64,000 bases of DNA from Kiloniella litopenaei (GTDB taxonomy: Bacteria > Pseudomonadota > Alphaproteobacteria > Kiloniellales > Kiloniellaceae). Positions 36,059 through 60,959 of this stretch are shown piece after piece. The notes under the pieces are model-generated. The model searched no databases, was not told where the DNA came from, and worked only from the letters and a program-made list of their open reading frames with translations. The stretch is taken from positions 62,001 through 126,000 of the forward strand of contig NZ_LANI01000001.1 of the NCBI RefSeq assembly GCF_000982415.1. The letters run 5' to 3'. Position numbers and translations under genes: made by a program. Position 1 is the first letter of the stretch. Every line of letters begins with the position of its first letter.

Positions 36059-36060
36059 GA

Positions 36061-40442: not shown

Positions 40443-40458
40443 GTCAAATTTTCCCAAT

Positions 40459-40516
40459 AAAAAAACCTCCGCTAAAAAGCAGAGGTTGAGACCTGTTTAT
40501 CCAAGAACGATTATAG
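40459..40516 (-). promoter_or_regulatory. Promoter-hairpin cassette 1 (before tail fibre)
   Basis: Minus strand: TTGTTC, 17 bp, TATAAT (-10 at 40516-40511), then the conserved block (plus strand CCTGTTTATCCAAGAACG within 40490-40510), then a 9-bp hairpin (40464-40487) with seven U. The block is identical for 21 bases to 54940-54960. Confidence 0.7.
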
Positions 40517-40558
40517 GTAATGAATCAGAGACGAACAATTCATCATAACAAACTGATT

Positions 40559-43500
40559 TTAATGCACGAAAGAAGATATCTTAGGAGTCAAAATAGGTGA
40601 AAGTGTTCCTGCTAGCCAAGTTTTATTTGTAATATTTTCTGTAGCTCCCTGCCAAATTTCAGCATTGGGATCATTGTAAAGACCAGCGATCAGTGCATTC
40701 ACGCCACCTTCGACCGCATCGGTTAAAAGCTGAGTTCCTTGATTTTTCATAATTTCATCAACGGGTATACCTGTTTTCTCAGAAATCATGATTACATTGC
40801 CAATTACTCGGTTTGCAAACCACTTCTTAGCAGGTTCAGGCAAAGCTTTTACCAGTTTATCGACCTTTATCGCTTCGATTGCCAAGCCTGTTGCAGCACC
40901 GGTAAGAATAGCAGCGGACTTTTCCTTTGCGCTAGCTTGATTGTTGACAGCTCGTATTTTCTGCTTGTGCGCTCCCTCCCCTGCTGCGACGACAGCCATC
41001 ATAGGAGCACTAACCGAACTAATACCAATTTTAGTTAAAACTTCGCCTGTATCATACGCAAGATCGGTAACCCAATGCTGTTGATCTGGCTTAAGGTATT
41101 CCGAGAAATTAGTAATTTCCCCTCCAACGTCTTGAAGCCCTTTTGATAAAGCTTTAGACGGATCTAACATCCAACCAAGTTGATTTTCTTCTAAAAAGGT
41201 TGAAAGTACTTCAGGCACGATCACCTTCTGAAATTGTTCCTCAGAAATCACCCCCGAATTAAGCATCATTATAACTGGCGACAAAGCAGGAAACAAAGAA
41301 GCCTCAATCGCTCCCGGCGCTAACTCATCAACGGCTTCAATGATATCCCCTACTCCGCTCACAGCAGAGCCGACCACGTTAACTCCTCCAGCAAAAAACG
41401 CAGACGTAATGTCATCAAGCCCCGGAAAATCTTGCTGACTAATATCAGGAGGGCTTATTACTCCTTGGACAGCAAGCTTACCCATAATAGCTGCCACTTC
41501 AGCGTGTTCTAAAGGTCTAGGTCCCGTAAAACGAGTGCTATGTTGCTTTCTACTTTTGAGTTCTTTTTCAACAGCGTCATAAACTGTAACAAGCGCCTTA
41601 TCAAAGTTATCTTTTTTATTAAGGTTATACCCACTGGAAACCACATCCTTTATAATGGAAAAGTTTATTTTTTCCTCACCAGTAGGATGCTTGGACAACA
41701 TTTTTTTCATTCTGATAATGTCATCTTCAATATACTTATTGGTACCAAGAAAAGGATCGCTGTTATTAAGTTTATCTGGCTCCTCATGCCAGGTTGTTAA
41801 AAATCGAGACACTGCACTATTATGTATTGCATCATCTTTTTTATAGTCACTTAAACCACCTTGATCGTTTTTGCTTTTCTGGATTGCATGAACAATTCTT
41901 TCCTGCTGCCCGTTAGCAACCTCAATTGATTGATCCTTAACAATAGAATCCTCGTGTTTTTTTACTGCATCAAGTATTCTCTCTTGTTGTGCACTTCTTA
42001 ATAAAATCGAATCATCTTCTGTTTGATCGACAAAACTATTATCCTCATCCCCGTGCACAGGCTGAAGCACCTCACCATTGGCGACCATGTTATTGGCAAT
42101 TTTCTCAATCTCAAAAGGTCCGGCGGGTTCTTTGTGCGTTCCGTTATATTCATCAATTCTTTCATCAAGTTGAATTCGGAAATCTACAAAATCTGGGCGA
42201 CTAAACTCTTCTTGCCCGCTCCTTCCCGTAATTTTCTCCCAAGTCTTCTGCGCCAAACGTTCACGCAATTTAAAACTGGCAACAGCACGAGGATCCGGCT
42301 CATTTTTCTGCATAGCCATAACCTCACCGATTTGCTTTGGAGTTAGATCCTTAAAGTAATGAGATAAATCATAGTCTGGAAAAGCTTCAGGATCAGCGAC
42401 TTGTAACGCTTTGAGTTTGTGTAGGGTACGTAAACCTTGAACACGCCTAAACTTAACATCAGAAGAGAAATCGTTTTCAACTGCGTTCATCTGATCAGCA
42501 TATTCTGCTATCTGATTTCGATCTATTTCAGCTAAATCCAGAGAAAGGTCATTAACATTGATGTTACCCTTATTTTCAACAAGATAATTCCATGCCGAAT
42601 AACGCTGTCCCTTTAGTCTTTCTCTTTGCTCTTTAGCTTGAAGGCGTCGTTCATTTCGCCAGAGAAGAGCCGCCTCCTCACCCACGAACTGATCTGGATA
42701 ATATTCCAACGTTCTAAACAAATCTTCTTCGGAAAGCCCCGCAGAATAAATATTATCCAGAAGCTTCGTGGCCTCGTTACGTACAATTCCTTTAGAGGCG
42801 ATGGATTGAAAATATCCCTTATCTTCGCTACCGACATATTCATCAATGTTGATGGCCGTCCCTGTTGCGGGGTCAACGCCATCCAGCAACAATTGTAAGG
42901 CTTCATAATTTCCCTGCTTGGCGTGTCCCTGAAGCGCAAAGGTCAGCAAACTTTTTCGTGCTTCCCTGCTTTTTCCAACAGCGGCCTCACGCCCCATTCC
43001 TGGCGCCAGATCATTGATATTACTATCAATAACGATAATGGCATCCGTCAGAGTATCCGGATTATTAACAACACCGGAACCATACTTTTCAATGTGGCGA
43101 TCAACAGTCGTATGAATTTTCTCTTTGATGATTTGCTGCTTGAAAGCCCTGAGAGACTGCAGATCAAAACGAGCCTTTTCGTCAAACCGCTGACTAAAGG
43201 CGGCGGCCTCATCTTCATCTTTGAAATTCTGCCGCGCCATCTGATCAGTTTTCATATCTGCATAGGCCGAATTGATTTCTTCATCAATTTTGGATGGTGA
43301 ACTGTCGGTGAAACCGAGCTGCTCCTTTATCCCCTGATAAAGACCAGAAGCAAATTCGGACATTTCTTCATAAAGGTCGATATCACGCAGCTTTTCCTGC
43401 ATAAAATCAGATGCGTCCCTCAAATCTGATTTCACGCCTTCGATAAAACCTTCACCTTCTGGGCTCTCAAGACGATCAATATCATCAACAGCGGCCTCCT

Positions 43501-43642
43501 GTGCTGCTTTTTTTTCCTTCTGATCTTTTTCATGAACCGCTTTTGCAAGCCTGGAAATACCGCTCGTAACAGTACCAATGTTTTCATCTGGAAGCTGAAA
43601 TCGAACCGTAGCAGGGGCTCGACTATCAGGAATATTTGGCAT
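40559..43642 (-). CDS. Internal virion / ejection protein (T7 gp15-16-like role)
   Basis: 1027 aa, largely helical and charged, with a short hydrophobic part at about 770-900. It sits where podoviruses encode their large core proteins that enter the cell with DNA. No lysozyme motif is visible. It is long and lacks a signal peptide, as expected for a virion protein. Position and length support the assignment; homology could not be checked. Confidence 0.6.
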   Translation of the reverse strand: MPNIPDSRAPATVRFQLPDENIGTVTSGISRLAKAVHEKDQKEKKAAQEAAVDDIDRLESPEGEGFIEGVKSDLRDASDFMQEKLRDIDLYEEMSEFASGLYQGIKEQLGFTDSSPSKIDEEINSAYADMKTDQMARQNFKDEDEAAAFSQRFDEKARFDLQSLRAFKQQIIKEKIHTTVDRHIEKYGSGVVNNPDTLTDAIIVIDSNINDLAPGMGREAAVGKSREARKSLLTFALQGHAKQGNYEALQLLLDGVDPATGTAINIDEYVGSEDKGYFQSIASKGIVRNEATKLLDNIYSAGLSEEDLFRTLEYYPDQFVGEEAALLWRNERRLQAKEQRERLKGQRYSAWNYLVENKGNINVNDLSLDLAEIDRNQIAEYADQMNAVENDFSSDVKFRRVQGLRTLHKLKALQVADPEAFPDYDLSHYFKDLTPKQIGEVMAMQKNEPDPRAVASFKLRERLAQKTWEKITGRSGQEEFSRPDFVDFRIQLDERIDEYNGTHKEPAGPFEIEKIANNMVANGEVLQPVHGDEDNSFVDQTEDDSILLRSAQQERILDAVKKHEDSIVKDQSIEVANGQQERIVHAIQKSKNDQGGLSDYKKDDAIHNSAVSRFLTTWHEEPDKLNNSDPFLGTNKYIEDDIIRMKKMLSKHPTGEEKINFSIIKDVVSSGYNLNKKDNFDKALVTVYDAVEKELKSRKQHSTRFTGPRPLEHAEVAAIMGKLAVQGVISPPDISQQDFPGLDDITSAFFAGGVNVVGSAVSGVGDIIEAVDELAPGAIEASLFPALSPVIMMLNSGVISEEQFQKVIVPEVLSTFLEENQLGWMLDPSKALSKGLQDVGGEITNFSEYLKPDQQHWVTDLAYDTGEVLTKIGISSVSAPMMAVVAAGEGAHKQKIRAVNNQASAKEKSAAILTGAATGLAIEAIKVDKLVKALPEPAKKWFANRVIGNVIMISEKTGIPVDEIMKNQGTQLLTDAVEGGVNALIAGLYNDPNAEIWQGATENITNKTWLAGTLSPILTPKISSFVH

Positions 43643-43682
43643 TTTCGATAACCTTTAAGCTTGAACCCACTGAAACTTGGGC

Positions 43683-43714
43683 AAAAAAATAGATCCAGCA
43701 ATTCTGCTTGGATC
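43683..43714 (-). terminator. Hairpin before the large internal virion gene
   Basis: Arms GATCC-A-GCA / TGC-TT-GGATC (43692-43714) with a U7 tract on the minus strand. The upstream sequence TTCTTTGGAT resembles the TTCTTGGAT part of the conserved phage element, so this may be a worn fourth cassette. Confidence 0.6.
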
Positions 43715-43775
43715 CAAAGAAAAAACTAAAGAGATAGGGGGAGCAATGCTTACAGAGATATTAGATCATTGCTAT

Positions 43776-44606
43776 TTACTGTGTCCGTAACAGTTCATTG
43801 TTTGAAAAATTATTCAAAAATCCGGCCACATTGTTTTCTATATCAACATCAGGATTATCTATTTGAGGTTTCGTGAAACCTTGTCGCATACGCTCTGATA
43901 AGATTTCATCCGTATCAATGGCATCTTCAGGATCCTTTAAAAGAGTATGAGAAGATGATGAATTCTTACGATCAATGCTTTTCTCAGACACTGTCTCATC
44001 AGGCCCAAGAGCACCAGTCAGACGGTCATGAAGTATTGATCTCTCAATTTTATCACCGATTATCTTCTTGTGTGATGGAACCATTCGCAGGCTGTCACTC
44101 TTTTGGTAAGACTGAACCCAACTCTTTATTCTTCTATCCGCAAAACCCCAAACATCTTCGGCGTACTTTAAATTTTTCTCTCTCAGATTACCTGTGCCGA
44201 TGCCCACAGTACGAATATGGTAATTTCCATCTTTCACGACGATAGAACGCTGTACCAACCCTGGATCAAGAAGGTGCAAGTTTGTTGTATAATTTGTCAC
44301 AATACCGGAGTGAGCCGAGGAATGCTTTACAAACCCTGGCCCAGCAAAATTTCCATACTTTGGCCCTAGTGGTGTTGCAAAGGTCGCCAACGCTGCGGAT
44401 ACAATTTCCTGGTCAACATCTTTGGCTGAAATACCAAGATCATGTAAAAAGCCGTATTCATGATAATCCTCATGGCTCTTTTTAATATCAATGATGTCTT
44501 CACCAAGCGTATCGAAAAAGTTATCCTGATCAATCGTGACAGGACCATATTCATCCGTGAAAAAAGTTGCAGTGCCATCGTTATTTAACTGCCATTTGTC
44601 TGACAT
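43776..44606 (-). CDS. Phage protein of unknown function, near internal virion genes
   Basis: 276 aa, soluble and acidic, with no signal peptide. Its C-terminus (GFLNNFSNNELLRTQ) matches the end of the 438-aa protein at 46510 (GFLNGFPRNSLMSSQ). It overlaps the membrane protein gene upstream by 26 bases. Possibly another virion or ejection protein. Family not recognised. Confidence 0.6.
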   Translation of the reverse strand: MSDKWQLNNDGTATFFTDEYGPVTIDQDNFFDTLGEDIIDIKKSHEDYHEYGFLHDLGISAKDVDQEIVSAALATFATPLGPKYGNFAGPGFVKHSSAHSGIVTNYTTNLHLLDPGLVQRSIVVKDGNYHIRTVGIGTGNLREKNLKYAEDVWGFADRRIKSWVQSYQKSDSLRMVPSHKKIIGDKIERSILHDRLTGALGPDETVSEKSIDRKNSSSSHTLLKDPEDAIDTDEILSERMRQGFTKPQIDNPDVDIENNVAGFLNNFSNNELLRTQ

Positions 44607-45159
44607 TCGCGTTTGTCCCTTTATGGTAAAATCTTAAATAAACAGCTGCACCAATCAACGCTTCAACCAAATTTCTAATAAAACCTTTCACCCAGATTTC
44701 ATACCCGCAAGCTGTTCGAACATAATCAACAATAGCCACGCAATCCCTAGTGCTGTACCCAAAGCTTGAAGTACCTTCACGCGGATGCATAAAATCAAAC
44801 AGGCTATAAATATCATATGAAATGAAGCAGATAACAAATAGCAGATATGTCCAAATAATCCGTTTCACTTTAAAGAAATTCAGGACCAATCCCCCTAGGA
44901 GAACGGGCAAATTTGACGGGATATGATAGAGAATTAAATAAAGTGAAAACTTTATGACTAACTCCAGAGCTCTGTCCAGAAGTAGAGTTACCTTTTGCGG
45001 GTTCGCTTCATCTATCAAAGTAAAGTCATAATAAAGCTTATCAATAAATTCATACGCAAAGGTCAGAAAAAAAAGAACCAGCATAGAAATAACAAAAGCT
45101 TTCAATACCCGCTTGAATTCTATTCCCTTAAAACGTGACTGAATAGCTGTCATAAACAT
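44581..45159 (-). CDS. Phage-borne membrane protein
   Basis: 192 aa with about four membrane helices (VISMLVLFFLTFAYEF; FSLYLILYHI...; IWTYLLFVICFISYDIYSLF; LVEALIGAAVYLRF). It lies among virion genes in the same direction. It may be an accessory (moron) gene altering the host envelope; nothing in it points to a virion part. An in-frame ATG at 45153 has better spacing from AGAAG. Confidence 0.6.
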   Translation of the reverse strand: MFMTAIQSRFKGIEFKRVLKAFVISMLVLFFLTFAYEFIDKLYYDFTLIDEANPQKVTLLLDRALELVIKFSLYLILYHIPSNLPVLLGGLVLNFFKVKRIIWTYLLFVICFISYDIYSLFDFMHPREGTSSFGYSTRDCVAIVDYVRTACGYEIWVKGFIRNLVEALIGAAVYLRFYHKGTNANVRQMAVK

Positions 45160-45271
45160 TCTTCTAGCTCATTTTTTAATCAAACTTCAGATAGCCAATT
45201 AACTCAGAAAGCACCACTTTATTCAACCATAAGATATAACGGGATTAAATCTCTATCTCCTATAACATTAT

Positions 45272-45715
45272 CTATAAGAAGCTTGATCCCGCATTGAGAA
45301 AACCACCGATCATGGCGTTGTTTCCGGCACGTTTATAGGCTTTGGCTTGCTGATTCCCGGCGTAGAGAATATTATCCACTTCCTGCGCCCCCAGCTTTTC
45401 AGTCTCTTCAATTAACAGGGCCGGACTGCCTTCAATTTTTAAACCCGCCGCTGCAAAATTGGCACGCTGTTGCCCCGCCAAACGTTGTGTATTGCGTCGA
45501 CTGATCGCGGCCTCCTGCGCCGCAAACCGCCTTGCCATTTTGGCCTGTTTTTTCGCGCGTTTACGTTCGGCAAAGCCGTTAAAAAGCGCCCCACCCGCCC
45601 CGAGTAAACCAGCCGTCGACGACAAACCACCAATTCCTGCCAGCGCACCAATAGCCGGAGCCGCACCCTTTAAAACTTTTTTGACACCTTTAAAAAGCTT
45701 TTTAAAAAACCCCAT
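45272..45715 (-). CDS. Internal virion protein (T7 gp14-like)
   Basis: 147 aa from the ATG at 45715. An amphipathic and glycine-rich N-terminus (GFFKKLFKGVKKVLKGAAPAIGALAGIGG) and an alanine/arginine-rich helix with AAGLKIEGSPALLIEETEKLGAQEVDNIL are typical of podovirus internal core proteins such as gp14. It probably embeds in the outer membrane during DNA entry. Confidence 0.75.
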   Translation of the reverse strand: MGFFKKLFKGVKKVLKGAAPAIGALAGIGGLSSTAGLLGAGGALFNGFAERKRAKKQAKMARRFAAQEAAISRRNTQRLAGQQRANFAAAGLKIEGSPALLIEETEKLGAQEVDNILYAGNQQAKAYKRAGNNAMIGGFLNAGSSFL

Positions 45716-45903
45716 CACGTAACCCTTTATGTTAGATTTCTTGTCAAAACTTGATCAGCATCAGGGATATATTCATAACACGTTTGAAACACTTCAAACG
45801 GCACAACATTACCGCCACTTAGCCGACCTCACCTTTATTTAATTGTTCAAAGGCCTCAAACTAGCTACCATTGCGTGCATTATATAAATCGGCACTGTTC
45901 TCT

Positions 45904-46506
45904 ATGCATTCTCTAATCGATAAAATCGAAGCTGAATTCAAAAAACGTTGCTTGGCTTACAGTATACTCGCCTGCGTCTCTGCAATCATCTTCTGTGTAC
46001 TTCTGTACATATCCCTAGTGTTTGCAAAACCATCTGATTTCACAATGTACTATAGCTGGGACCCCCCCCCCGAGATTTATATATACAGAAAATATTGGGG
46101 AATGCTTTTATCAACAGCATTGATCTCTATCCTCATAATCGCCCTACTTTTAACGATCACAATTCCTTTTTACCTGATAAAAAGACAAAAGCTGGATAGC
46201 TATTTCAACACTTTGAAAAACAAGTCAAATTTACCATGTGATTTTATATATATCCTCAGATATGCAACACTGTTTACATCTATCATATGGTTCATACTTA
46301 CGATTACTTTTTGCTATGACACACTATCTGAACTGTACCCGCCTGTTCTTTTGGAAACAGTAGAAGAAAACCATGACATCGCGACAGCACGACACTGGGA
46401 AGATTATACTTATTTCCTGTTTTGTCTTTTTTCAGTGGTTAGCAGCATTTTTGCAATAACTCCCGTATCCCTGAGCAGCTATCTTATTTTCAAAGGCCAA
46501 AAGTAA
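45904..46506 (+). CDS. Membrane protein on opposite strand, with C10 tract
   Basis: 200 aa from the ATG at 45904; a TTG frame reaches 45871. Four membrane helices (YSILACVSAIIFCVLLYISLVFA; GMLLSTALISILIIALLLTITIPF; YATLFTSIIWFILTITFCY; YFLFCLFSVVSSIFAITPVSLSSYLIF). It is the only rightward gene inside the virion block, so an accessory lysogen gene is likely. A run of ten C (46062-46071) encodes WDPPP near residue 55; slippage would switch the gene off. Family not recognised. Confidence 0.65.
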   Translation: MHSLIDKIEAEFKKRCLAYSILACVSAIIFCVLLYISLVFAKPSDFTMYYSWDPPPEIYIYRKYWGMLLSTALISILIIALLLTITIPFYLIKRQKLDSYFNTLKNKSNLPCDFIYILRYATLFTSIIWFILTITFCYDTLSELYPPVLLETVEENHDIATARHWEDYTYFLFCLFSVVSSIFAITPVSLSSYLIFKGQK

Positions 46507-46509
46507 ATG

Positions 46510-47823
46510 TCATTGAATAGATTTTGATTGTCTGTTTATTTGAGAAGACATTAAAGAATTGCGGGGAAAGCCATTTAAAAATCCCAAATTTTCTTGTTCT
46601 TTATTACGATCAAGATGATTTAGATCTTCTTGTTTTCCTTGACCTAGATCACTCTTTTTCCCAGACCAAAATTCTAAATCATCATTTTCAGGTAAAAAAT
46701 TCTCGGGATTGATTTGGTCCAAATAACTTTGGTTTCTATGAACAGGAGGAGCATCAATTGTTTTATTTCCAAGCACATCAATACTATCAAAATCAATGTT
46801 TTGGTATTTTAGACGCGCATTTCTTCTCAAGTTAAGTTCTGTCGCTTCATAGCTATCAGCTAGAATCTCCCGGTTAGTAAAATCACCAGAACCTCCGCCA
46901 GGGGATGGAGGACGACCTGGGGGCCACTCCTCTCTTATCCATTTATTATTCTTACTGAATATCCAACCATCAACTTTCTGTGGATTACCAGTATAATTCT
47001 TGGTTCTCACTCTCGAAGTGATTTCCTTTCGAACATTAAGAGGGATCGGGGCACTGACACCAAATAAAATACCTTCAAAAAACTCTTTAGAATCTCTTTC
47101 TTTTAGCTCTGTTTTCATTGTGTAACGGGTCGCAGCTGCATTAATCGCCAAAAACTTTTCCAGCTGTTCGGGATCTTGTTTTATTGTTTCGCCAATTGTT
47201 TCGCCTGATTTTAGCTTATGATCCCAAAAGTAAAACGCACCTCCCCAACCGGCTAAATCCTGCTCACCTTCTTTTAAAGCACCATCAATTTCAGCATTAA
47301 TAATTTCACTGATACCTGGCAATATCCTGATACTTTTCAGATTGTTATCATTATTTCCACCCTCGTTTAACTCCTGCTTATTTATCTCATATTTGTGTTT
47401 TTGCAGTTTTTTTATAACGTAACTTACGACCCCGCGACCAATGATCTTCGTTGTCTCATCTAAACGATCTTTGGTTCCGTCCATTCCTGTTTCATCTTTA
47501 ATATCAAGAGACTTTCCTGAATAATGTAGCCCGTACTTTGAAACAGCTCGTATAAACTTATTTGCTGAGCTTTTTGGGTCATCACTGTTAATTTCCGCTG
47601 CTCGCTCAAACCATGTTTTCGTTTTCTCATAGTCAGGATCATCTCGGTTGACCCCTAACATTTCTGGATTTTCTTCGAGAACTAAAGCAATTTCGGCATA
47701 GGCTTTATAGAAATTTTTAGTACCCTCTTTAGTGTTCACCTTAATATTTCCTAAGAGTTCAGCAGAACTCTTAGGAACTTTTAATGAACGACGAAACGCT
47801 TCTAAACGATGAGTGTTTTCCAT
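46510..47823 (-). CDS. Phage protein, probable virion component
   Basis: 437 aa from the ATG at 47823, with GAGG eight bases upstream; a TTG lies at 47835. Soluble, helical N-terminal half and a polar, probably disordered C-terminus that ends in GFLNGFPRNSLMSSQ plus a short tail. This end matches the 276-aa protein at 43776. It sits between the tail tube and internal virion genes. No family recognised. Confidence 0.6.
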   Translation of the reverse strand: MENTHRLEAFRRSLKVPKSSAELLGNIKVNTKEGTKNFYKAYAEIALVLEENPEMLGVNRDDPDYEKTKTWFERAAEINSDDPKSSANKFIRAVSKYGLHYSGKSLDIKDETGMDGTKDRLDETTKIIGRGVVSYVIKKLQKHKYEINKQELNEGGNNDNNLKSIRILPGISEIINAEIDGALKEGEQDLAGWGGAFYFWDHKLKSGETIGETIKQDPEQLEKFLAINAAATRYTMKTELKERDSKEFFEGILFGVSAPIPLNVRKEITSRVRTKNYTGNPQKVDGWIFSKNNKWIREEWPPGRPPSPGGGSGDFTNREILADSYEATELNLRRNARLKYQNIDFDSIDVLGNKTIDAPPVHRNQSYLDQINPENFLPENDDLEFWSGKKSDLGQGKQEDLNHLDRNKEQENLGFLNGFPRNSLMSSQINRQSKSIQ

Positions 47824-47872
47824 TTTATGCCTCAATAATAACGCCCCGGAAAAAGCAAAACGTGAGAGGGAA

Positions 47873-49636
47873 CTACCCCTCTGACTGTACTTCTGTGATC
47901 AGTGATCTGATTGTTGCGGGTAGTGGTTGTCTTGCGCGGATAAAAATTTGTGCCTTGTCGCTAAAGCCGTTTTCCGGGTCAATTTCCAAGTACCCGGTGT
48001 AGAGATCCGGGGACTGCCCAAAGGGTGTCGAACCATCGCGAAAGATATGTGTTTGGGTATCTGCCAGCGTATCACCGGCTTCGATTGTTCCCGTGTTCAT
48101 GACATCCACACCCATGGAAACAACCCGCTTTTTCTTGCCTCGACCAGTTCCATTTTGCAGTGCGACAATCGGGGATAAAGGCTGGACGACAGATTGATAA
48201 GGCAAGCCGGCTGTAATTTTCAAACCTGTACGGTTATTCTTTAACGATACCTTGCCATCATTTGCCACCATTGATCGTGGAGACACCTTGCCATCATGCA
48301 GGATATCCACCTCTTCACCCACCAGATGATCAAAACCGTTAATGGTGTTTGCCGCATCCCCTTCATAGGTTCCGCCACAATCCACAAAGAAGGCATCTTT
48401 TTTATCACCACCATCGTCAAACCCGGCTTCCATAAATTCAATGTGGCGCACGATTTCTCCATTGACTTTGCGCTTCACCGACAGCCACAGAACTTCCCGT
48501 TTGGCTTCATAAGTTACGGCAACGGTTTCAACTTCGCCCCAATCATGGTCGTCGGTTGATCCGCCCAATTTATGGCGATGAAAGGCGACAACTTCCTGTG
48601 ATTTTTCATAGGTAACGCCAACCAGTTGCCCGTCATCCCGCACCATCCAGATAATGGAATCAGGGTCATTGACCATGTCCATATCCTTGATCCCGGTGCC
48701 CGTAATATGTTGGGATAAAAAGGTCTGATCCGGCGCAATAAAGCTGTCGCGCTCAAACGAAAAGACAAACTCGTGCAATCGCTTTCTGTTCCGACTTAAA
48801 AAGAGAGCCACTTCCCCCTTCTGGATCGGCGGAATAGCAGCTGATCCTTCCGTGGTATGGCGGCGATTGATCACCGACGTCACGGTCAGGGCTTCATTGG
48901 CTGACGATCCGCTCAATGTTCTTGTTGCTCCCGATGTTCCCATCATCAGGGCACGTCCCTCGACCATCCATTGAATATGATTGACCTGTCCAGCCTTGAT
49001 CGTGGCTTTAAAGGCATCGTCAGCATTGGTGCCTAAAGTAAAGTTTTTCTCGTTGGATGTTTTCGACGTCCAGATGGTTTGCGGTTGATCAGGTGGCGAG
49101 GCAAAGATAGATCGCTGCTGGTAAAAGGAACAGCGTCTGGGATAGTTCCCTGCCTTCCATTCCGATGGCTTGGCAGTAAAGGTAATATCCGCCAGTGACC
49201 AGTCGGCATGATCATTCCGTTTTAGCTCTTTTGGCGGGTGATCCTTGTGTACAATCCACAGGCTGTTTTCCGTCTGGGTAAAGACCAGATCAAACAGCTC
49301 TTCTTCTTTGTAGGGTGTGGTAATTTCATAAGGGGCATCATCTTTTTCAATTTGCCCGAAATCACGATAAAACCGCATGTAAAGATCGCCAATCTCCAAG
49401 ATGTAGGCGTCTTCTGTTGAGTATTCGAACGAAATTAGACGGCATTGTTTATCGGCGTGTTTTGCCTTTGCCACAAAGCGGGTTCCCGGACGACGTGTCA
49501 TGCCGCCATGTGGTAACACAATCCAGTTTTCACATAGTGCCAATCCTGTCTGGTAGAGCTGCGTATCTTCCCGTCCGTGTAATCGGGGCGTTATCTCACC
49601 GCGAACAAAGCTGGCTTGAAGGGTTCTTGGCGGCAT
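47873..49636 (-). CDS. Tail tubular/nozzle protein (gp12-like)
   Basis: 587 aa from the ATG at 49636, which overlaps the preceding stop in TGATG. Beta-rich; the N-terminus SFVRGEITPRLHGREDTQLYQTGLALCENWIVLPHGGMTRRPGTRFV is characteristic of the podovirus tail nozzle/tubular protein B family. It forms the lower tail tube. Confidence 0.82.
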   Translation of the reverse strand: MPPRTLQASFVRGEITPRLHGREDTQLYQTGLALCENWIVLPHGGMTRRPGTRFVAKAKHADKQCRLISFEYSTEDAYILEIGDLYMRFYRDFGQIEKDDAPYEITTPYKEEELFDLVFTQTENSLWIVHKDHPPKELKRNDHADWSLADITFTAKPSEWKAGNYPRRCSFYQQRSIFASPPDQPQTIWTSKTSNEKNFTLGTNADDAFKATIKAGQVNHIQWMVEGRALMMGTSGATRTLSGSSANEALTVTSVINRRHTTEGSAAIPPIQKGEVALFLSRNRKRLHEFVFSFERDSFIAPDQTFLSQHITGTGIKDMDMVNDPDSIIWMVRDDGQLVGVTYEKSQEVVAFHRHKLGGSTDDHDWGEVETVAVTYEAKREVLWLSVKRKVNGEIVRHIEFMEAGFDDGGDKKDAFFVDCGGTYEGDAANTINGFDHLVGEEVDILHDGKVSPRSMVANDGKVSLKNNRTGLKITAGLPYQSVVQPLSPIVALQNGTGRGKKKRVVSMGVDVMNTGTIEAGDTLADTQTHIFRDGSTPFGQSPDLYTGYLEIDPENGFSDKAQIFIRARQPLPATIRSLITEVQSEG

Positions 49637-50214
49637 CAATTTCGCGCCTCCACCCAGGACGAAGGAACCAAATCGCTCACACCGTCTTCCATCATGTCAT
49701 TGGACTTGGCCAGTGCCAGATCATTCCTGTAAAGGCCAAGGGCCATATTCAGTTTGGTTTGTGACCCGGTTAATACCTCTGCCAACCTCACCGCCAGTTG
49801 AGCCGCTACAACACGACGCAAGTCCGGTGGCATGTCCGACGGTTCCACTTCACTACTGATATAGCGGTAATAAAGCGGCGCGGACTGATGACACAGGATG
49901 TATCGCCCTTCCAGCTGATATACCACGGGCAGGCCATCATATTCCCCTGTTGTGGTAATAGGCAGAACCTGAATATCATCAACCGGGCGTCGATATCGTT
50001 TCCATTCACCAAAGGCTGATGCCTCGGCGGATGCAGCCAGTTTCACCCGGCGGATCGCGCATGACCAGGGATAGGCACGCAAAACGGTTTCGACTGCTCT
50101 GGGATAGGCGATCTTGCATTGACGCGCCTCCTTGCTGTTTTCATCCAAGGAAACAATGGATTTATCACCCAGGATCTGCAAAGCATCCCGACAGATTTCA
50201 ACTTTGCTGCTCAT
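49636..50214 (-). CDS. Tail tubular/adaptor protein (gp11-like)
   Basis: 192 aa from the ATG at 50214 (AGGAAAACAG before it). SSKVEICRDALQILGDKSIVSLDENSKEARQCKIAYPRAVETVLRAYPWSCA is the typical N-terminus of podovirus tail tubular protein A, which joins the portal to the nozzle. Confidence 0.8.
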   Translation of the reverse strand: MSSKVEICRDALQILGDKSIVSLDENSKEARQCKIAYPRAVETVLRAYPWSCAIRRVKLAASAEASAFGEWKRYRRPVDDIQVLPITTTGEYDGLPVVYQLEGRYILCHQSAPLYYRYISSEVEPSDMPPDLRRVVAAQLAVRLAEVLTGSQTKLNMALGLYRNDLALAKSNDMMEDGVSDLVPSSWVEARN

Positions 50215-50317
50215 CTGTTTTCCTGACCTGTAGTTATGGGATAATACAAAAGCGGGCGACCAGTTCCCCCGATCTCCCGCCTTCTCAAACATCAAAGGAA
50301 TTCAATCCTTGATGATA

Positions 50318-50542
50318 TCAAGCCCTTTCCATCCAACTGGATGAAAAGTGTTCGGCCTCTCTCAAGTCAAAGATATCTCCCTCTTCCCTGAGCTGGGCAC
50401 CGTAATACCCCAGGGCAATCGCGCGTACCTTCAGCACTTCTGCTTTAGGTACAGTATCAAGGCTTGCCGCCGACACAGCTTTGGCAGAACTCCGCCCTCT
50501 CTTTGCGGTCACTCCTTTCGCGGATTTTGGCCGCAATGCCAT
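50318..50542 (-). CDS. Small phage protein
   Basis: 74 aa. Basic, likely disordered N-terminus (SAKGVTAKRGRSSAKAVSAAS), then LKVRAIALGYYGAQLREEGDIFDLREAEHFSSSWMER, a pattern common in small phage head proteins of this position. It starts directly at the end of the cement protein gene. Function unknown. Confidence 0.65.
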   Translation of the reverse strand: MALRPKSAKGVTAKRGRSSAKAVSAASLDTVPKAEVLKVRAIALGYYGAQLREEGDIFDLREAEHFSSSWMERA

Positions 50543-50964
50543 TAACTCTGCACTCCGGCGACAATTGCTGCTGAAATCTTGCCATTGGTCGGATTTGTTC
50601 CCGTCACCGTATAGCGAAGACGCATGTACCGTTCATCCAGACCCTTGGGCAAAATGTGGAAAGACGTCTGTTTTCCCGCCACAAGATCAGCCTGCACAAT
50701 CGACTGAGACAGCACTTCGCGTGGGGAAGAGAAACTGGTTGTGCTATCCACTTCGATTGCGATTTTCAGTGATGTCAGATTGTTAAAATCCTCTGTCACC
50801 TGCACATTCAACGGCACCGCAGTGCCATCACCGGGGTTGCTTGGCAGTGCTGCAGACGCCCCGACAACTGTCCCGGTTGTACCAAGATCAAGAATATTGG
50901 TTGATGCAGCAGTACTGGTAATTGCCTGCTGATCCGAAAAGGTAAGTTGCTTACTATGAATCAT
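50542..50964 (-). CDS. Capsid cement protein, Bbp16-like
   Basis: 140 aa from the ATG at 50964. It opens with SKQLTFSDQQAIT and ends MRLRYTVTGTNPTNGKISAAIVAGVQS, as in the Bbp16 capsid cement family described for Bordetella phage BPP-1. It should decorate or stabilise the capsid. It follows the major capsid gene by 28 bases. Confidence 0.78.
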   Translation of the reverse strand: MIHSKQLTFSDQQAITSTAASTNILDLGTTGTVVGASAALPSNPGDGTAVPLNVQVTEDFNNLTSLKIAIEVDSTTSFSSPREVLSQSIVQADLVAGKQTSFHILPKGLDERYMRLRYTVTGTNPTNGKISAAIVAGVQS

Positions 50965-50992
50965 ATTAAATCTCTCTCTAAGTTCGGAAAAA

Positions 50993-52012
50993 TTAAGCAG
51001 ACAGAACGCGTGCTTCGGTATTAAGAAGCGCGTCAGTTTCACGAATTGGAATACCGCGATAGGTCAAGACTTCCTGACCTTCCAGTTCACTGTCTTTCAG
51101 GCGAACAAAGTTATCCCCGGCCCCGGCATTGGTTGCCAAGGCATCCAAGGCTTCAAGCACATCACGGTTACAGTAAATAACCTGACGCCCCCCTGCCGCA
51201 TCACCGCGACGGATACGGCTTTGCAGTTTGTAATAGGCTTTACGCATGAAATCATAAAGCTTCACATTACCCGCCTGCATCTCAGATACATCAATGTTGG
51301 CGACACGGGATACATAGCGCCAATCCTTGACGGCCAGCCCCAGATGCCATGTGAACTTTTCTTCCTTCACATAGTATGGGTTGTTGTTGTCATCCAGAAC
51401 GCGTTGGCGCCCCATATCATCCCGTTGCAAGCCCGCTTTTGTGCCTTGCGGATAAAGCAGATGACAGTGACGATCACCCCAGGTTACAAACCAGATAGAT
51501 GTGTTATCCGACCCGGTACCACCTGCATCAATGACCTGCTCACCTGCACCACCGCCGCCGATGGCATTAAAACGTGCAGAAAGCCCTTTGAACTTTTCCG
51601 GTGTTGATGCTGTGTCATGATAAAACAGACCAGATGCTGCTTCCTGGTTCATTGATTCCATAAACGCCATGGCTTCGTTCAAACGAACACCCGCTTCGTT
51701 CTTGGACAGGTTTAGGACACGTTCATCAATGGTGGCCAAAGCTTCCAGATAGCCCGTTGTATCGGTGACCTGTTGTTGTTTGGCTTTTGACTGTGTAATG
51801 CCTTGATACAACGCGCCCCATGAAACGGATGGTAAACCGGTACGAATGGTATGCAGGTGTTCTGATCCTTTATTGCATTCCATCGCAATCGCATCATCCA
51901 GAATAGGGTTTTGCTGTTTCAGAAGCTCGATAATTGTTGCAGTCGAACCATTCGGATCAGTTTGTTTATAAATATCGATAAGATCGACAAAAGTATTTCC
52001 AAGTGTAGCCAT
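50993..52012 (-). CDS. Major capsid protein, Bbp17-like
   Basis: 339 aa. The N-terminus (MATLGNTFVDLIDIYKQTDPNGS, IIELLKQQNPILDDAIAMECNKG) and centre (FVTWGDRHCHLLYPQGTKAGLQRDDMG) match the podovirus Bbp17-type capsid protein. No protease gene is nearby, so assembly relies on the adjacent scaffold. It follows the scaffold gene by two bases. Confidence 0.87.
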   Translation of the reverse strand: MATLGNTFVDLIDIYKQTDPNGSTATIIELLKQQNPILDDAIAMECNKGSEHLHTIRTGLPSVSWGALYQGITQSKAKQQQVTDTTGYLEALATIDERVLNLSKNEAGVRLNEAMAFMESMNQEAASGLFYHDTASTPEKFKGLSARFNAIGGGGAGEQVIDAGGTGSDNTSIWFVTWGDRHCHLLYPQGTKAGLQRDDMGRQRVLDDNNNPYYVKEEKFTWHLGLAVKDWRYVSRVANIDVSEMQAGNVKLYDFMRKAYYKLQSRIRRGDAAGGRQVIYCNRDVLEALDALATNAGAGDNFVRLKDSELEGQEVLTYRGIPIRETDALLNTEARVLSA

Positions 52013-52014
52013 AA

Positions 52015-52830
52015 TCAGCCTTCCTTAGTAGATGATGGGTAGAGAATTTCCGCAGCAGATCTGTTGCGTCTGGTTGCACCGGCTCCGCCGGGGCTGCTGT
52101 CCTCTACCAGGGAGAGGCCAGCTTTATGAAAGGCGCGAATGACAACGGGATCATTTAAGATCCCGGCTTCAGACAACACCCCCTCAAGTTCAGAACCACC
52201 CAATGCCTTGAGGGCACGATTGGCGGTTCTGACATTCACATCCATTTTGGATCCCCACTCTTCGCGAAGCGTTTGCGTGGTTTCCTCAATTTGTTGGCTT
52301 AAATATTGTTGTTGTTCACGTTCCAGATTTTCCATGGATTGCGTTTTGGCCTGCAAATCCATATCGGCCAGCACCTGTGCCTGTTCTGGGGAAAGCCCCA
52401 GCGCGTGCGAGAGTTCACTTATAGCCCCAGTGTATGCATTCCAGTCTTCCTTGCTATGCTGAGCACTGAGTTCTTCCGGAACCTCTAATTCGTAACCATC
52501 CGGGGTTTCCGGAACACCCAATGCCGCATAAAAGGCATCAATTTCATCTTCGCTGGCACCCTCTGAAGGTAACTTAAGATACCCATCCCTCTCCGTCGCC
52601 TGATCGGGTAAAGTATCATTCTGCCCCTCTGGATAGCTCTCTGGGTTCTCGCTTGTAGAAACTCCATGCTGTTCGATGGAAGATCCATTCAGGTCGCCCT
52701 CTTGAGCTGAATTTTGGGCATGAAAAAACCCGCTATCTTGCGATGCGGGTTGATACCGAGAAGGTTGCGAATAACCGGGACTTTCAGGGCCAGAAACGGC
52801 TGATCCGCTTAAACCGGAATCATCACTCAT
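52015..52830 (-). CDS. Scaffolding protein
   Basis: 271 aa, acidic, with a disordered serine/proline-rich first third and a helical, coiled-coil-like centre (EQAQVLADMDLQAKTQSMENLEREQQQYLSQQIEETTQTLREEWG). This composition and position (between portal and capsid genes) are typical of phage scaffolds. The segment GVPETPDGYELEVPEEL resembles many phage scaffold proteins. Confidence 0.82.
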   Translation of the reverse strand: MSDDSGLSGSAVSGPESPGYSQPSRYQPASQDSGFFHAQNSAQEGDLNGSSIEQHGVSTSENPESYPEGQNDTLPDQATERDGYLKLPSEGASEDEIDAFYAALGVPETPDGYELEVPEELSAQHSKEDWNAYTGAISELSHALGLSPEQAQVLADMDLQAKTQSMENLEREQQQYLSQQIEETTQTLREEWGSKMDVNVRTANRALKALGGSELEGVLSEAGILNDPVVIRAFHKAGLSLVEDSSPGGAGATRRNRSAAEILYPSSTKEG

Positions 52831-53104
52831 ATTGCATATCTTCCTCTTGTTTTAAATAAGCCGCCTTTGCCAACTCTGCTCGCAAGTCAGAACTGACAGA
52901 AGCTTTCCGAAGAATATCGAACGCCACAGCACGTTTACCGTCATTGAAGACAGACGGCCCATCAGGGGGGGTGGTTTCAAAAGCTTGCGCCTGATCAAGG
53001 ATATCTGCCAAAACCATCTGACCATCAGATGATGCAAAAAGCCGGCTATAAGCTTCGACAAGTTCGTGTTGTTTTTTAAGCGAAAAGGGCCAGCCTTTGA
53101 GCAT
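52823..53104 (-). CDS. Bbp19-like phage protein
   Basis: 93 aa. The pattern EAYSRLFASSDGQMVLADIL ... FNDGKRAVAFDILRKA is characteristic of the Bbp19 family of phage proteins found between portal and scaffold genes. It overlaps the scaffold gene by eight bases. Role unknown, likely in head assembly. Confidence 0.78.
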   Translation of the reverse strand: MLKGWPFSLKKQHELVEAYSRLFASSDGQMVLADILDQAQAFETTPPDGPSVFNDGKRAVAFDILRKASVSSDLRAELAKAAYLKQEEDMQYE

Positions 53105-53107
53105 AGT

Positions 53108-54787
53108 TTAAACCTCTCCTTCTGGGACCTGATCGGGGGCCGGGATCTGATCAGGGTTAAGTCCTGCCGCACCAAGTGCTTCCATAATCGGCAATGCTTT
53201 TCCGGCGGTATCAATATCCTGCGCTTGCTGTGCCGCCATCAATTGCTGTTGTTGGGCTTCTATTTTTGCCTGTCGGCTTGCTTGAACCTCTTCCACAGGA
53301 CGCATCAGATCGGCTGGCATACCATTGATGTCCGCACGGGCACGAATAATGCGGTCATGATCAAAATTGTCCATAATTGTCGGATCGAACTGCGCCTGTT
53401 GCGCGGCTGTTTCCAACGTGCGCTGAATACCAACATCCTCCGCAGCACGCCGCAGTTTTGCCATAGGACTGGTGAATTTTAAGGTAAGGCTGCGGCCCTC
53501 AAGAACCTCTGGCCGTGGTGGCAGATCAATAATGCCATCATCTGCCTGACGTTCCAGAATGGCATTTTCACGCATCACCATAGATGCCAACATTTCTTCC
53601 TGCTTGGCAAAGGGCGGGCCAATCAATTCGTTCTTTTCCTGTGCTCGCAACGCCGCTTCATAGGCTGTCATGTCTGGCTTGTTCACAAGAATTTGCCATA
53701 GATCACCGTAAAAATTCGCGCTGATATCCATCTGTTTTTTGGCAATCAGCTGCTCGCCGATATCTGGTCGCGCCCCGGTTACAATCGGTTGGATTTTCAA
53801 ACGCCCGTCATCGGTTACAAGGTCCGGATTGATGGCATTGGCGCTCAAATTCAATCTGCGCTTGAGCTTCTGAACTGTAGCAAAGGCAGGTGAGACCGCC
53901 TGTTCAGCCGCCGCAATCGTAGTCTTGTTCATAACATTGAGCTGTTTGATATCCGGCAGGGCCATCATGCCCGGTCCCCAGCCATAGGCTTCGCCGTCAC
54001 TCTCTACAAATGATGACGCGTGTATGGGAAACTCGTAATAACCGGACTGTCGCAAGACATGATGATGCCCTTTGAGAACATGAACAGAGGGCCAGGGCAG
54101 AAGCGTTTGTGTATCTCCGCTCAGGGTCGTGTCAATAGCATGGATAATTTCAAATTTTTCTTCCAGTAAATCCGGCTTGTCCAATCGGGTTGTTAGAAAC
54201 TCTGGTAAAGCCTCCAGACCGAACTCATCGATAATCTGTCGTAACGTAAGTTTATAAACCCGGTAGAATGTATCCACCTGCCCCCAGGCCGTGGTTGCCA
54301 GAAAGCATTCAATAATCGGGATCATGCGGTATCTAATGGGCGGCAAGTCTTCCCCGCCCGGACCTCGGGACAAGACTTCTTCGGTCATCAACACCTGGTT
54401 GCCATAGCACCCCAAAGACCGGAACATCCGCTGCGTATTCGACACAAAGCCCGATTTTGCCATATATCGAACAGAAAAAAGCTTCTTGGTTCGCTGTTCT
54501 GCCCAAGCTTGAACTTCATCGCTTTCCCGTAAATCATCATCAACAGGCTCCAGTCCGTGCCAGATTGATCCGCGGGGAATAAGCAGACTTTCGATTGCCG
54601 CGGAAAAACGCGCCAGATCCTGCAACGGGCGGGAACTGAACATCTTTGACATATCACCGCGTCTGCCCTCCAGAATTGATCCAAAAGGGTCAAGACGTTC
54701 AGCCGTTTCCATCCAGATCTTGTCAAACTTGGACCGTTCATTCGCCAGTGCGGCCTGACGATTAATTACCTTTTCAGCAAGCTCCAT
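53108..54787 (-). CDS. Portal (head-tail connector) protein
   Basis: 559 aa of the podovirus head-to-tail connector family (PF12236, T7 gp8 type). Marker segments: IWMETAERLDPFGSI near the start, a conserved AAIESLLIPRGSIWHGLEP, GWGPGMMALPDIKQLNVMNK and DMTAYEAALRAQEKNELIGPPF. It forms the dodecameric ring through which DNA is packaged. A promoter-hairpin cassette lies upstream. Confidence 0.88.
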   Translation of the reverse strand: MELAEKVINRQAALANERSKFDKIWMETAERLDPFGSILEGRRGDMSKMFSSRPLQDLARFSAAIESLLIPRGSIWHGLEPVDDDLRESDEVQAWAEQRTKKLFSVRYMAKSGFVSNTQRMFRSLGCYGNQVLMTEEVLSRGPGGEDLPPIRYRMIPIIECFLATTAWGQVDTFYRVYKLTLRQIIDEFGLEALPEFLTTRLDKPDLLEEKFEIIHAIDTTLSGDTQTLLPWPSVHVLKGHHHVLRQSGYYEFPIHASSFVESDGEAYGWGPGMMALPDIKQLNVMNKTTIAAAEQAVSPAFATVQKLKRRLNLSANAINPDLVTDDGRLKIQPIVTGARPDIGEQLIAKKQMDISANFYGDLWQILVNKPDMTAYEAALRAQEKNELIGPPFAKQEEMLASMVMRENAILERQADDGIIDLPPRPEVLEGRSLTLKFTSPMAKLRRAAEDVGIQRTLETAAQQAQFDPTIMDNFDHDRIIRARADINGMPADLMRPVEEVQASRQAKIEAQQQQLMAAQQAQDIDTAGKALPIMEALGAAGLNPDQIPAPDQVPEGEV

Positions 54788-54838
54788 AAGATCTCCAGTT
54801 CACTGTATTTGATCCTCGCAAAACAAAGTTCCAAAAAC

Positions 54839-54966
54839 AAAAAACCCTCGCATTAAATGCAAGGGGTACAACACTTATTGGACATGTCATCAAACTCTAT
54901 AACACGCCCAAATCACCTATAGTCTTTACGCTTCCAGAGGACCTGTTTATCCAAGAACGAATATAC
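54839..54966 (-). promoter_or_regulatory. Promoter-hairpin cassette 2 (before portal)
   Basis: Minus strand: TTGTTT, 17 bp, TATATT (-10 at 54966-54961), the conserved block (54940-54960, same 21 bases as cassette 1), then a hairpin at 54845-54865 (CCCT-GCAT arms) with a U6 tract, then the portal gene at 54787. Confidence 0.7.
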
Positions 54967-55007
54967 CGTTATCCCAAGGGGCAAACAAAGTATAACGAAG
55001 AAAATTT

Positions 55008-55316
55008 TTAACGAATTTTGTTATATTCAGGGCGAAGCAAATTCAATGTTGCAAGGCCGCGAACCCGCCGAACAGGTGATGGCTTCAAACTTGTATAAGG
55101 GGTTAATAAAGAATCAGAGTTACTGGCATCTGGATACAAGACATCCTCTGGCGAAGGCCTTATTGTCCGCAAGCTTCGGTCATCCTCTGAACGCCCCTGC
55201 GAAAGTCGAAGGGATCGACCTGTATTTTGCCCTGTCCCCCTGCTCCTGAGAATACCCTCCGTATGGACTCTTCTGGTTGGCCGCGGCGGCCTGTAATTGC
55301 TTGAAGTCATTTGCAT
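55008..55316 (-). CDS. Small phage protein with shared C-terminal tail
   Basis: 102 aa, arginine- and serine-rich and likely disordered. Its C-terminus (LYPDASNSDSL... SPVRRVRGLATLNLLRP) is a diverged copy of the tail on the 383-aa neighbour and the 135-aa protein at 60960. It begins one base position before the upstream gene's stop, so the two are coupled. No known family. Confidence 0.6.
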   Translation of the reverse strand: MQMTSSNYRPPRPTRRVHTEGILRSRGTGQNTGRSLRLSQGRSEDDRSLRTIRPSPEDVLYPDASNSDSLLTPYTSLKPSPVRRVRGLATLNLLRPEYNKIR

Positions 55317-56468
55317 TTATCTCACCCTCCCGAAATTAGCCCGTCTGGCGTTAAGTGTTGATAGCTTTGGTGCCCTGCGCACGGGTGATTGCCCTTGCGA
55401 CACACCAATACCCAAATGTAACGGGTCTTCTTCGGTTAATAGATCCGGATACAACTGTTCCGTCGCCCGTTCAAAAACAGATTTATTTCTCGTTTTTTCT
55501 CCTTCTTTTTGTAAACTTCGCCGTCCTGCCGCTACCGCACTTTGCTGGCTTTGCACACTATCCAAAACCTCACTGGTATAGGACTTCCCAACTGGGTAGC
55601 CTGCCAAAGAAGCTAACTCCGAAGTTCTGCCCACTAAACCAGCATACCCATGACTTCTAGAGATAAATGAAAGTGCCTGTTCTCCGGGGTTATATGATTT
55701 ACTCCAGGCTGGCTGGCCAAAGGTTTCTGTGTCCAGAGAATAGGTTGGGTAGGCATCTACTCCCGGAAGCACTGAGCTTGTAAATCGAGAAAAAGCATAT
55801 GTGCCGGGGTTGTTTATTTTTGCATAAGTTTGGGCGAGTGCTGTTCGTTCTACAGGCGAAGTTGCAGCTTTGATGTTATCCAACTGACTTTTTGTCAGGG
55901 GGTTGAGCTTCGCTGTCGCAATGCCATTCGCTCGATTATATTGTCTGGCCCAATCAACCCTGCTTCCCGAATATCCAGGTGGCGCATCAGGTGTGTGCTG
56001 CCATCCAGATCCCGTTTCCTCTGCTTCTTCCTGTTCTATTTCGTTATACTCTTTCTCTAAAGCAGCTCTGTGTTTGTCTGCCAACTCTTTGGTTTTATCG
56101 GCTTTCGGACTACCAGTTGCCCCTTTTGTCTTATTATTATCAATTGCCCCGGAGTTTCGGTTTTCTCCTCCGTCTCTATCTCTATTACCATTTGGGCCAT
56201 TATCGTTCTCATCGCTTCGGTCCCGTCCCCGCCCATCAAGACCGGTATTATCTTGCGGAGAATTAGCACCAGCTTCATTATCACCAGGCGCATCATAGAA
56301 CTCTCTGAACCCCGTTTTAGGGTTTACTGTGCCGCTTCCCCCCAATGCTTTTAACAGAGCCGCTTCGCGTTTATTTACATGAACCAGTTCTGTATCACCA
56401 AACCGCCCCTTCGCTGCCAGGCGCGCCAGGGCATTTCCTCTTCTTGACGTTTGTTGCCTTTTTCTCAC
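55317..56468 (-). CDS. Phage protein with shared C-terminal tail
   Basis: 383 aa from a GTG at 56468 with GAGGAG about nine bases before. The first 55 residues include LVHVNKREAALLKALGGSGTVNPKTG, a pattern I have seen in phage proteins near the terminase. A long polar, repeat-poor disordered part (residues 60-190, rich in N, G, D, K, E) follows. The end is LYPDLLTEEDPLHLGIG then VSQGQSPVRRAPKLSTLN. The tail is shared with the genes at 55008 and 60960. Function unknown; an ejected or packaged protein is possible. Confidence 0.6.
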   Translation of the reverse strand: MRKRQQTSRRGNALARLAAKGRFGDTELVHVNKREAALLKALGGSGTVNPKTGFREFYDAPGDNEAGANSPQDNTGLDGRGRDRSDENDNGPNGNRDRDGGENRNSGAIDNNKTKGATGSPKADKTKELADKHRAALEKEYNEIEQEEAEETGSGWQHTPDAPPGYSGSRVDWARQYNRANGIATAKLNPLTKSQLDNIKAATSPVERTALAQTYAKINNPGTYAFSRFTSSVLPGVDAYPTYSLDTETFGQPAWSKSYNPGEQALSFISRSHGYAGLVGRTSELASLAGYPVGKSYTSEVLDSVQSQQSAVAAGRRSLQKEGEKTRNKSVFERATEQLYPDLLTEEDPLHLGIGVSQGQSPVRRAPKLSTLNARRANFGRVR

Positions 56469-56832
56469 GCTTTAATTCTCCTCAATTTAATCGGGCTTGG
56501 TAATACCGAACCCTTGCGGCTTGCATACGATTACCAGTGACAAAATACGCTTCATTCCACTACCCATAAAAAAGCCCCACTTTTGGTGGAGCTTGTTTTT
56601 CAACAAAGACGGATTATCCCAAAACGATCTTAACGGCGAACCAGATAAAATAAAAAGTATCATAGGACCGCGGTAAAAAGTGATATTCTGCCTCTTTATG
56701 TGCGATTAACCAACAAAAGCAGCAAGCATCTGCTATGAAATAGAGAAAAGCATTTGAACTCAGGATATTAACAATCTACCATCACATAAAGTTGCATACA
56801 CTTATAATTTTCCATCATAGTTAGATTTCATA
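56469..56832. other. Intergenic region with phage promoter cassette
   Basis: No gene. It holds promoter-hairpin cassette 3 (56568-56635), and on the right side the promoter region of the rightward cargo gene at 56833. Confidence 0.5.
56568..56635 (-). promoter_or_regulatory. Promoter-hairpin cassette 3 (before 383-aa gene)
   Basis: Minus strand: -10-like TAAGAT (56635-56630), a diverged conserved block (plus strand TTATCCCAAAACGAT at 56614-56628, against TTATCCAAGAACGAT in the other copies), then a hairpin at 56572-56594 (AAGC-CCAC arms) with a U6 tract. The -35 is weak. Confidence 0.5.
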
Positions 56833-57489: not shown

Positions 57490-57572
57490 CTTCACAGGCA
57501 AATAAGACTTTGGACACAATATTAATTTTCTTCGGTCCCTTCGCTCTGCGTTCAGTAAAACAGGAATTATTC

Positions 57573-58148: not shown

Positions 58149-58294
58149 CTATTGGTTATAACCACCTGCGCGTCCCAAGCATAATAAGAACCTTCACCAA
58201 GATCATAATTTCCCCACAATAGAGTATTGACCGATGTCAATTCTACATCCAGAATAACCACAACCATAGAAATACATCTAAACAAAGAATTATT

Positions 58295-58456: not shown

Positions 58457-58495
58457 CCGCGGAACAACATCGGGCCGATGCCTGTCAGAACCCAA

Positions 58496-59041: not shown

Positions 59042-59072
59042 AGAGACTTTGATAAATAGCACAGGAATGCGT

Positions 59073-60957: not shown

Positions 60958-60959
60958 CC

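Follow-up and report, generated by a model that had tools for sequence, protein, structure and literature searches.

In a 64,000-nt stretch of Kiloniella litopenaei contig NZ_LANI01000001.1 (the window; its own genome is labeled G000), three minus-strand sites within a phage-derived structural element share one order of parts: a conserved -35 region, a variable spacer, a -10 hexamer, a block, an intrinsic terminator and then a gene. We refer to these sites as cassettes A (40459..40544), B (54839..54994) and C (56567..56661). All seven genomes that carry the element preserve the arrangement of promoter, block, terminator and gene at each of the three sites, as an antitermination switch predicts. 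Antitermination by a dedicated factor would be the likeliest explanation of the cassettes, and we hold it to be moderately probable.

Anatomy of the cassettes

In cassette A, the -35 region (GATGAATTGTT, 40544-40534) is followed on the minus strand by the -10 (TATAAT, 40515-40510), the conserved block (40509-40490) and a terminator hairpin (40487-40464) with its T-run, whose stem ends 21 nt before the ATG at 40442. The corresponding minus-strand parts of cassette B are TATACTTTGTT (54994-54984), TATATT (54965-54960), the block (54959-54940) and a terminator (54865-54845) with T-run, the stem of which ends 57 nt before the ATG at 54787. Those of cassette C are GATACTTTTTA (56661-56651), TAAGAT (56632-56627), a diverged block (56626-56607) and a terminator (56594-56572) with its stem end 103 nt before the GTG at 56468. 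The distance from the -35 region to the -10 is equal at A, B and C. The block is 20 bp long, abuts the -10 and spans about -6 to +14; it reads CGTTCTTGGATAAACAGGTC in A and B and CGTTTTGGGATAATCCGTCT in C. Within the block, a -10-like hexamer (GATAAA, GATAAT, GATCAT) stands in a fixed register about one base into the presumed transcript, and matches in at least 4 of 6 positions in 9 of 11 block types and in 2 and 3 of 6 in the others, a count made without a chance control.

A first-pass annotation of this DNA had pointed to a 21-bp exact repeat at 40490-40510 and 54940-54960, each copy standing beside a minus-strand -10/-35 pair with 17-bp spacing and followed by a U-tailed hairpin and a gene start. 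Upon rechecking of the coordinates, all of this was borne out as sequence: the -35 hexamers are TTGTTC (A) and TTGTTT (B), 17 bp upstream of TATAAT and TATATT, and the hairpins and start codons lie at the positions given above. The third, diverged copy that it had proposed, cassette C, is also genuine, since it aligns with B in upstream element, spacing and terminator and has counterparts in the six other element-bearing genomes. A suspected fourth copy near 43683-43730 did not hold up. The feature at 43690..43716 (minus strand, -12.6 kcal/mol), before gene 40559-43642, is a hairpin with a T-run that has neither promoter nor block; it gave no matrix score above 8, versus 25 to 85 for the copies that built the matrix, and its best match to a degenerate cassette pattern had 5 mismatches in 17.

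The 21-bp repeat ties for the longest exact direct repeat of the window, and the longest repeat in 20 Markov-simulated windows was 17 bp at most. The other exact 21-bp direct repeat, at 9846 and 9993, has its copies 147 bp apart within a long plus-strand open reading frame (ORF) and is unrelated to the cassettes. A search for further copies, allowing up to 3 mismatches, placed the block 20-mer at only two positions in the whole of its own genome. When scored against a plain sigma-70 consensus, the A, B and C promoters are unremarkable, and a consensus scan picks out none of the three. A terminator scan does pick out all three hairpins; promoter and terminator totals are not above those of shuffles. 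It is conservation and repetition, not consensus, that argue for the predicted cassettes, and consensus alone proves nothing.

Conservation across the genus

Nine genomes of the genus were searched, including that of the window, and seven carry the element as judged by its connector gene, which is missing in G045 (77% complete) and G048. Cassettes A and B were found in all seven carriers. Cassette C was found in five at first, and then on closer look in G044 and G047 at 4 mismatches to the pattern, a level that 19 of 300 length-matched background pieces also reach; in both genomes a terminator and a C-type gene follow. G044 (K. majae) carries B twice, the second copy lying 630 bp further upstream and preceding a small gene that is duplicated.

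Identities among orthologues were computed on 7 copies of A, 7 of B and 5 of C. The -35 element is 95-97% identical overall (97% in A, 96% in B), the -10 is 100% identical in A and in B and 77% in C, and the block is 93% identical in A, 91% in B and 54% in C. The corresponding values are 42-55% for the spacer (51% in A, 55% in B) and 27-54% for the upstream 23 bp (27% in A, 54% in B). Cassettes A and B stand 14 kb apart, ahead of unrelated genes; when compared with each other, they are 87% identical in the block, 18% in the spacer and 23% in the 20 nt after the block. In C, the spacing and a GGA core are kept and the block is more diverged.

Several rows stood outside the identity and terminator sets: the second B of G044, the IMG/VR loci L048 and L052, G043a (by eye, a duplicate C copy before a gene fragment), and the C copies of G044 and G047. 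All of these except L052 show promoter, block and terminator by eye. L052 is a diverged second element (portal 86%). Its B copy combines TATTAT with a block core (GGATCATTCCGTC), and a terminator follows directly ahead of the portal gene; upstream of the block core the match is poor. L048 and L052 lie on one IMG/VR contig (2890351070, 74.9 kb), whose two structural elements are related and point the same way.

The cassettes are nearly restricted to the element. A degenerate pattern, derived from these same cassette copies, gave 19 matches inside the element and 2 outside it in the seven carriers at no more than 1 mismatch, and none in the two non-carriers. At up to 4 mismatches, no cassette was found before genes of the 60960-61367 type (4 genomes), nor before the C-type gene of L052. 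A search of viral contigs with the pattern returned only contigs of this same element, and seven loci scanned (L068-L074), of 24 genomes with the portal gene outside the genus, had no match. We rejected one further candidate, a 2-mismatch match at G042:C2:32693, which has no terminator within 150 nt and faces a background of the same order.

Predicted terminators and read-through

A terminator was found between the block and the start codon in all 19 leaders tested, with folding energies of -11.5 to -20.5 kcal/mol and a T-rich tail. For this analysis, the search was restricted to the leader so as to exclude hairpins inside coding sequence, and an equal or stronger hairpin was found in 16 of 1900 dinucleotide shuffles. 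Two further C leaders (G044, G047) look alike by eye. The hairpin begins 16-17 nt after the presumed transcription start in A, 43-91 nt in B and 22-58 nt in C, where its sequence differs widely between species and the hairpin itself is kept. In all seven genomes, 20-21 nt separate the end of the cassette A stem from the start codon, which leaves no room for another promoter. Thus, if the hairpin terminates, the tail-fibre-like gene behind it needs read-through, whatever the source of the transcript.

Proposed antitermination and its alternatives

From this arrangement we infer promoter activity, a start site, termination in vivo, a pause and a factor. A, B and C may be the late promoters of a domesticated podovirus-type structural cluster, each acting as a promoter-terminator switch. 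RNA polymerase would start just downstream of the -10, perhaps with an activator aiding the poor -35, and would pause early, or be otherwise recognized, at the block (-6 to +14). By default it would stop at the intrinsic terminator, the hairpin of which begins 16 to 91 nt after the presumed start, and release a short leader RNA. Upon induction, a factor recognizing the promoter or early-transcribed DNA (or the nascent 5' RNA) would load onto the polymerase, and the factor-loaded polymerase would then be able to pass the terminator and transcribe the operon. The recognition surface would be the block itself, perhaps together with the -35 region.

The same sites might instead be activator-driven late promoters with leaky terminators. 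An activator would then bind at GATnnnTTKTW, the block would be a start-site or discriminator element, and the terminator would merely damp basal expression and end the upstream operon, with no specific antiterminator involved. The weak -35 hexamers suit activator dependence, as with GafY in the available part of the published account (PMC11150451); the terminators sit after upstream genes and could serve both; and our searches turned up no antiterminator. However, all seven elements have the promoter ahead of the terminator at each of the three sites, hairpins of -11.5 to -20.5 kcal/mol with T-rich tails would exact a cost on the connector and tail genes behind them if nothing relieved it, and the conservation of the block extends over 20 bp. 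We regard this explanation as possible but unlikely.

The position of the block, partly outside the transcript, and its conservation at the DNA level would also fit a repressor or activator site over the start site that silences the genes, with the terminator being incidental. Such an operator is improbable, given that the block has no clear dyad symmetry (by eye only) and that a terminator after each copy would go unexplained. We likewise give little credence to a role of the 5' leader RNA (GGAUAAACAGGUC), whether acting in cis in a put-like or attenuator-like manner or binding an antiterminator as RNA. The block is mostly transcribed, and in A the terminator's 5' arm offers AGGU a possible pairing partner (by eye); but B leaders diverge past the block (41% identity over the next 20 nt), bases -6 to -1 are conserved though presumably untranscribed, and no Rfam family scored above threshold in the cassettes, the best being PK-repBA on the plus strand at 22.3 versus 45 bits. 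Sibling trans-acting small RNAs with a common 5' seed, which would share the anatomy of promoter, short RNA and terminator, are very improbable, as seed pairing with 29 translation starts of the window is at chance level (290 of 300 shuffled seeds were as strong) and a separate small RNA would not typically have its terminator directly ahead of a ribosome-binding site and gene.

Antitermination itself has a number of observations against it, the chief weakness being the lack of a recognized factor gene. A Q-like gene had been suggested as a check on the first-pass reading, and none emerged: searches of 9 genomes for PF06530 and PF03589 gave no match, with their positive controls detected, PF06323 gave none in the 9 either but its control also gave no signal, and no Q family was recognized among 30 window proteins with PHROGs, nor any regulator among the element proteins scanned. 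The GafZ-type domain DUF6456 (PF20057), the control for which was positive in Caulobacter, occurs in 1 of 9 genomes, as a borderline match on another contig. The cassettes themselves raise further difficulties. Their conserved element does not lie where the Q, AlpA and GafZ sites do, between -35 and -10, as far as the available parts of the respective reports describe these. The -10-like hexamer is poor in the B copy of G047 (2/6) and the C copy of G043 (3/6), and at 2 mismatches the genome matches to the pattern come near the reversed-pattern control (for instance, 8 versus 6 in G000). B and C have 38-103 nt after the hairpin, possible space for part of another promoter. Among six B hairpins, one base pair has changed on both sides, and this degree of covariation, equalled in 98 of 500 shuffles, is not significant.

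The borderline DUF6456 protein lies at L121:1234-1837 (G000 contig 26), and a neighboring frame is phage-replication-like by eye. An extra NusG paralogue is not universal: a second copy is present in 4 of 7 carriers, G000 and G049 have one copy, and none was found in the metagenome-assembled genome G047.

Taken as a proposal, the first-pass idea of antitermination cassettes stands in so far as the predicted order is kept at A, B and C in all seven genomes, while its analogy to the lambda Q system finds no support as regards membership, as the spacer is variable and the Q families were not found. We do not assign the cassettes to the Q, AlpA or GafZ systems, given that the conserved element has another location and that the searches recognized none of the known Q families.

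The element that carries the cassettes

The phage-derived structural element fills 34012..64000 of the window, is encoded on the minus strand apart from some small plus-strand genes, and runs past the window to the small terminase at its right end (L066:9855-10325, about 64.3 kb in window coordinates). Its recognized genes, namely terminases, connector, capsid, tail, tail-fibre-like and endolysin genes, are on the minus strand, and variable cargo, partly on the plus strand, lies between terminase and connector. Behind cassette A is the tail-fibre-like gene (39534..40442, minus strand), which matches tail PHROGs and has a Pfam T7 tail fibre domain below cut-off. The gene behind cassette B (53108..54787, minus strand) encodes a head-to-tail connecting protein (portal, PF12236) and heads the connector/capsid/tail run. 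The gene behind cassette C (55317..56468, minus strand) encodes a G/S/N-rich protein with a C-terminal SPVRRAPKLSTLN motif and without assigned function.

The latter protein belongs to a G/S/N-rich family encoded between the terminase and connector genes, in which the N-terminal parts vary greatly and the C-terminal tail is conserved (for example SPVRRVRGLATLNLYRPEY or SKVRRAPNLSTLNVRR). Its members in the window are 55008-55316, 55317-56468 and 60960-61367, all on the minus strand, and others are found at L055:2250-2561, L055:2880-3197, L056:13400-13714 and L058:11405-11719. The conserved tail may mark proteins carried in the virion for packaging or cleavage. Two related plus-strand genes, 56833-57489 and 57510-58148, begin with signal-peptide-like sequences and are oriented against the late genes; the fetched loci of G044, G046, G049, G042 and G043 contain a counterpart of at least one of the two. 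In the K. laminariae genomes (L064:4159-8810, L063:5613-10204), the variable interval holds three chaperone-usher-like genes. The set in L064 includes PapD_N just above cut-off, a DUF4402 protein and a 1026-aa usher-sized protein without an usher match.

Scans of 30 window proteins with PHROGs and of Pfam sets of 10 + 10 + 10 proteins, some of them from outside the element, recognized no integrase, repressor or replication gene; these scans drew on non-overlapping ORFs of at least 80 aa. A defence-gene scan of 9 element proteins found nothing. In each of the six testable genomes the element is bordered on the right by the same gene, which in G043 is 2.3 kb away from the terminase. This neighbor (L066:10554-14552) encodes a protein of 1332 aa in which Pfam recognizes a topoisomerase, with Toprim, fused to a RecD2-type helicase. 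A tRNA-Ser(GCT) marks the left end in 3 of 4 genomes, G043 not being one of them. Purifying selection acts strongly on the capsid, connector, tail and terminase genes: the ratio of nonsynonymous (dN) to synonymous (dS) divergence is below 0.06 in all element comparisons with finite dS, and the capsid gene has a dN of 0.005-0.009 at a dS of 0.60-0.72. Synonymous divergence of the element is mostly below that of flanking host genes; thus lineages may have exchanged the element, and its descent need not have been strictly vertical.

The element shows two of the features looked for in a gene transfer agent (GTA): structural genes without recognized integrase or replication genes, and one chromosomal place under purifying selection. 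We infer a domesticated, GTA-like structural module rather than a decaying or ordinary prophage. The first-pass label of prophage calls for correction, as this appears to be a structural-gene-only element kept at one place. For the order Kiloniellales, the row of a published survey reads 5, 1, 0, 3, 0, 0, the last two columns being the abundance and percentage of RcGTA-like clusters, in the part of that source available (PMC6821227). We suggest, tentatively and with considerable doubt, that the element might be a podovirus-type GTA outside the RcGTA lineage, with connector/capsid, tail-fibre and cargo modules that would be co-switched by a new class of processive antiterminator recognizing the initially transcribed region and not the spacer.

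Comparison with known systems

Among the open-licence papers listed, the only literature searched, no title or opening of an abstract describes this Kiloniella element or the cassette, and this is not proof of absence. Among phages, Vibrio phage 1.021.A (MG592403) and relatives resemble the element: the major capsid protein is 68.5% identical, and 9 of 23 genes in the structural half (v01-v23) have counterparts in the same order. In contrast, none of the 27 other genes was found in the 50 kb searched, and the portal gene of the phage begins 3 bp after its neighbor, which leaves no room for a cassette.

The lambdoid pR'/Q system has a promoter, an early-transcribed -10-like element and an intrinsic terminator before the late genes. 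The promoter and the terminator have likenesses here, the terminator between the putative late promoter and its genes being predicted in 19 of 19 leaders, and the -10-like hexamer of the block may be a further one. Q requires a binding element (QBE) located in the spacer and a -10-like pause element in the initial transcribed region, according to the available part of the report (PMC6606751). In the Kiloniella cassettes, however, the stretch between -35 and -10 that would hold a Q site is variable (42-55% identity among orthologues, 18% between A and B), and there are three cassettes before separate gene blocks.

Closest in geometry is AlpA of Pseudomonas aeruginosa. In the sections of the report at hand (PMC7969949), each of its two target operons has a terminator upstream of the first gene, as in the cassettes, with the distance from start site to terminator being 26 and 54 nt, whereas the AlpA site lies between its -35 and -10. 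The AlpA site GGGACGN5GGTA is absent from the cassettes; the window has a single 1-mismatch match (35827), with 1.95 expected by chance.

The GTA of Caulobacter (CcGTA) is likewise an alphaproteobacterial domesticated phage cluster, in which GafY assists a degenerate -35 and GafZ antiterminates at the promoter, as described in the available part of the study (PMC11150451). Activation at a degenerate -35 together with antitermination would be shared with the model proposed here. The two differ in that, in the same part of that study, the CcGTA terminator comes after the first gene and the ZBE lies between -10 and -35, and in that the particle genes of the Kiloniella element are podovirus-type.

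If the antitermination model is true, three coordinated switches in a genus-wide element would offer a tractable model for the silencing of domesticated phages, and the conserved block would be a handle for finding a new antitermination factor. The logic would be like that of Q, AlpA and GafZ, with the conserved element placed elsewhere: their recognition sites lie in the promoter spacer, whereas here it is the sequence downstream of the -10 that is conserved.

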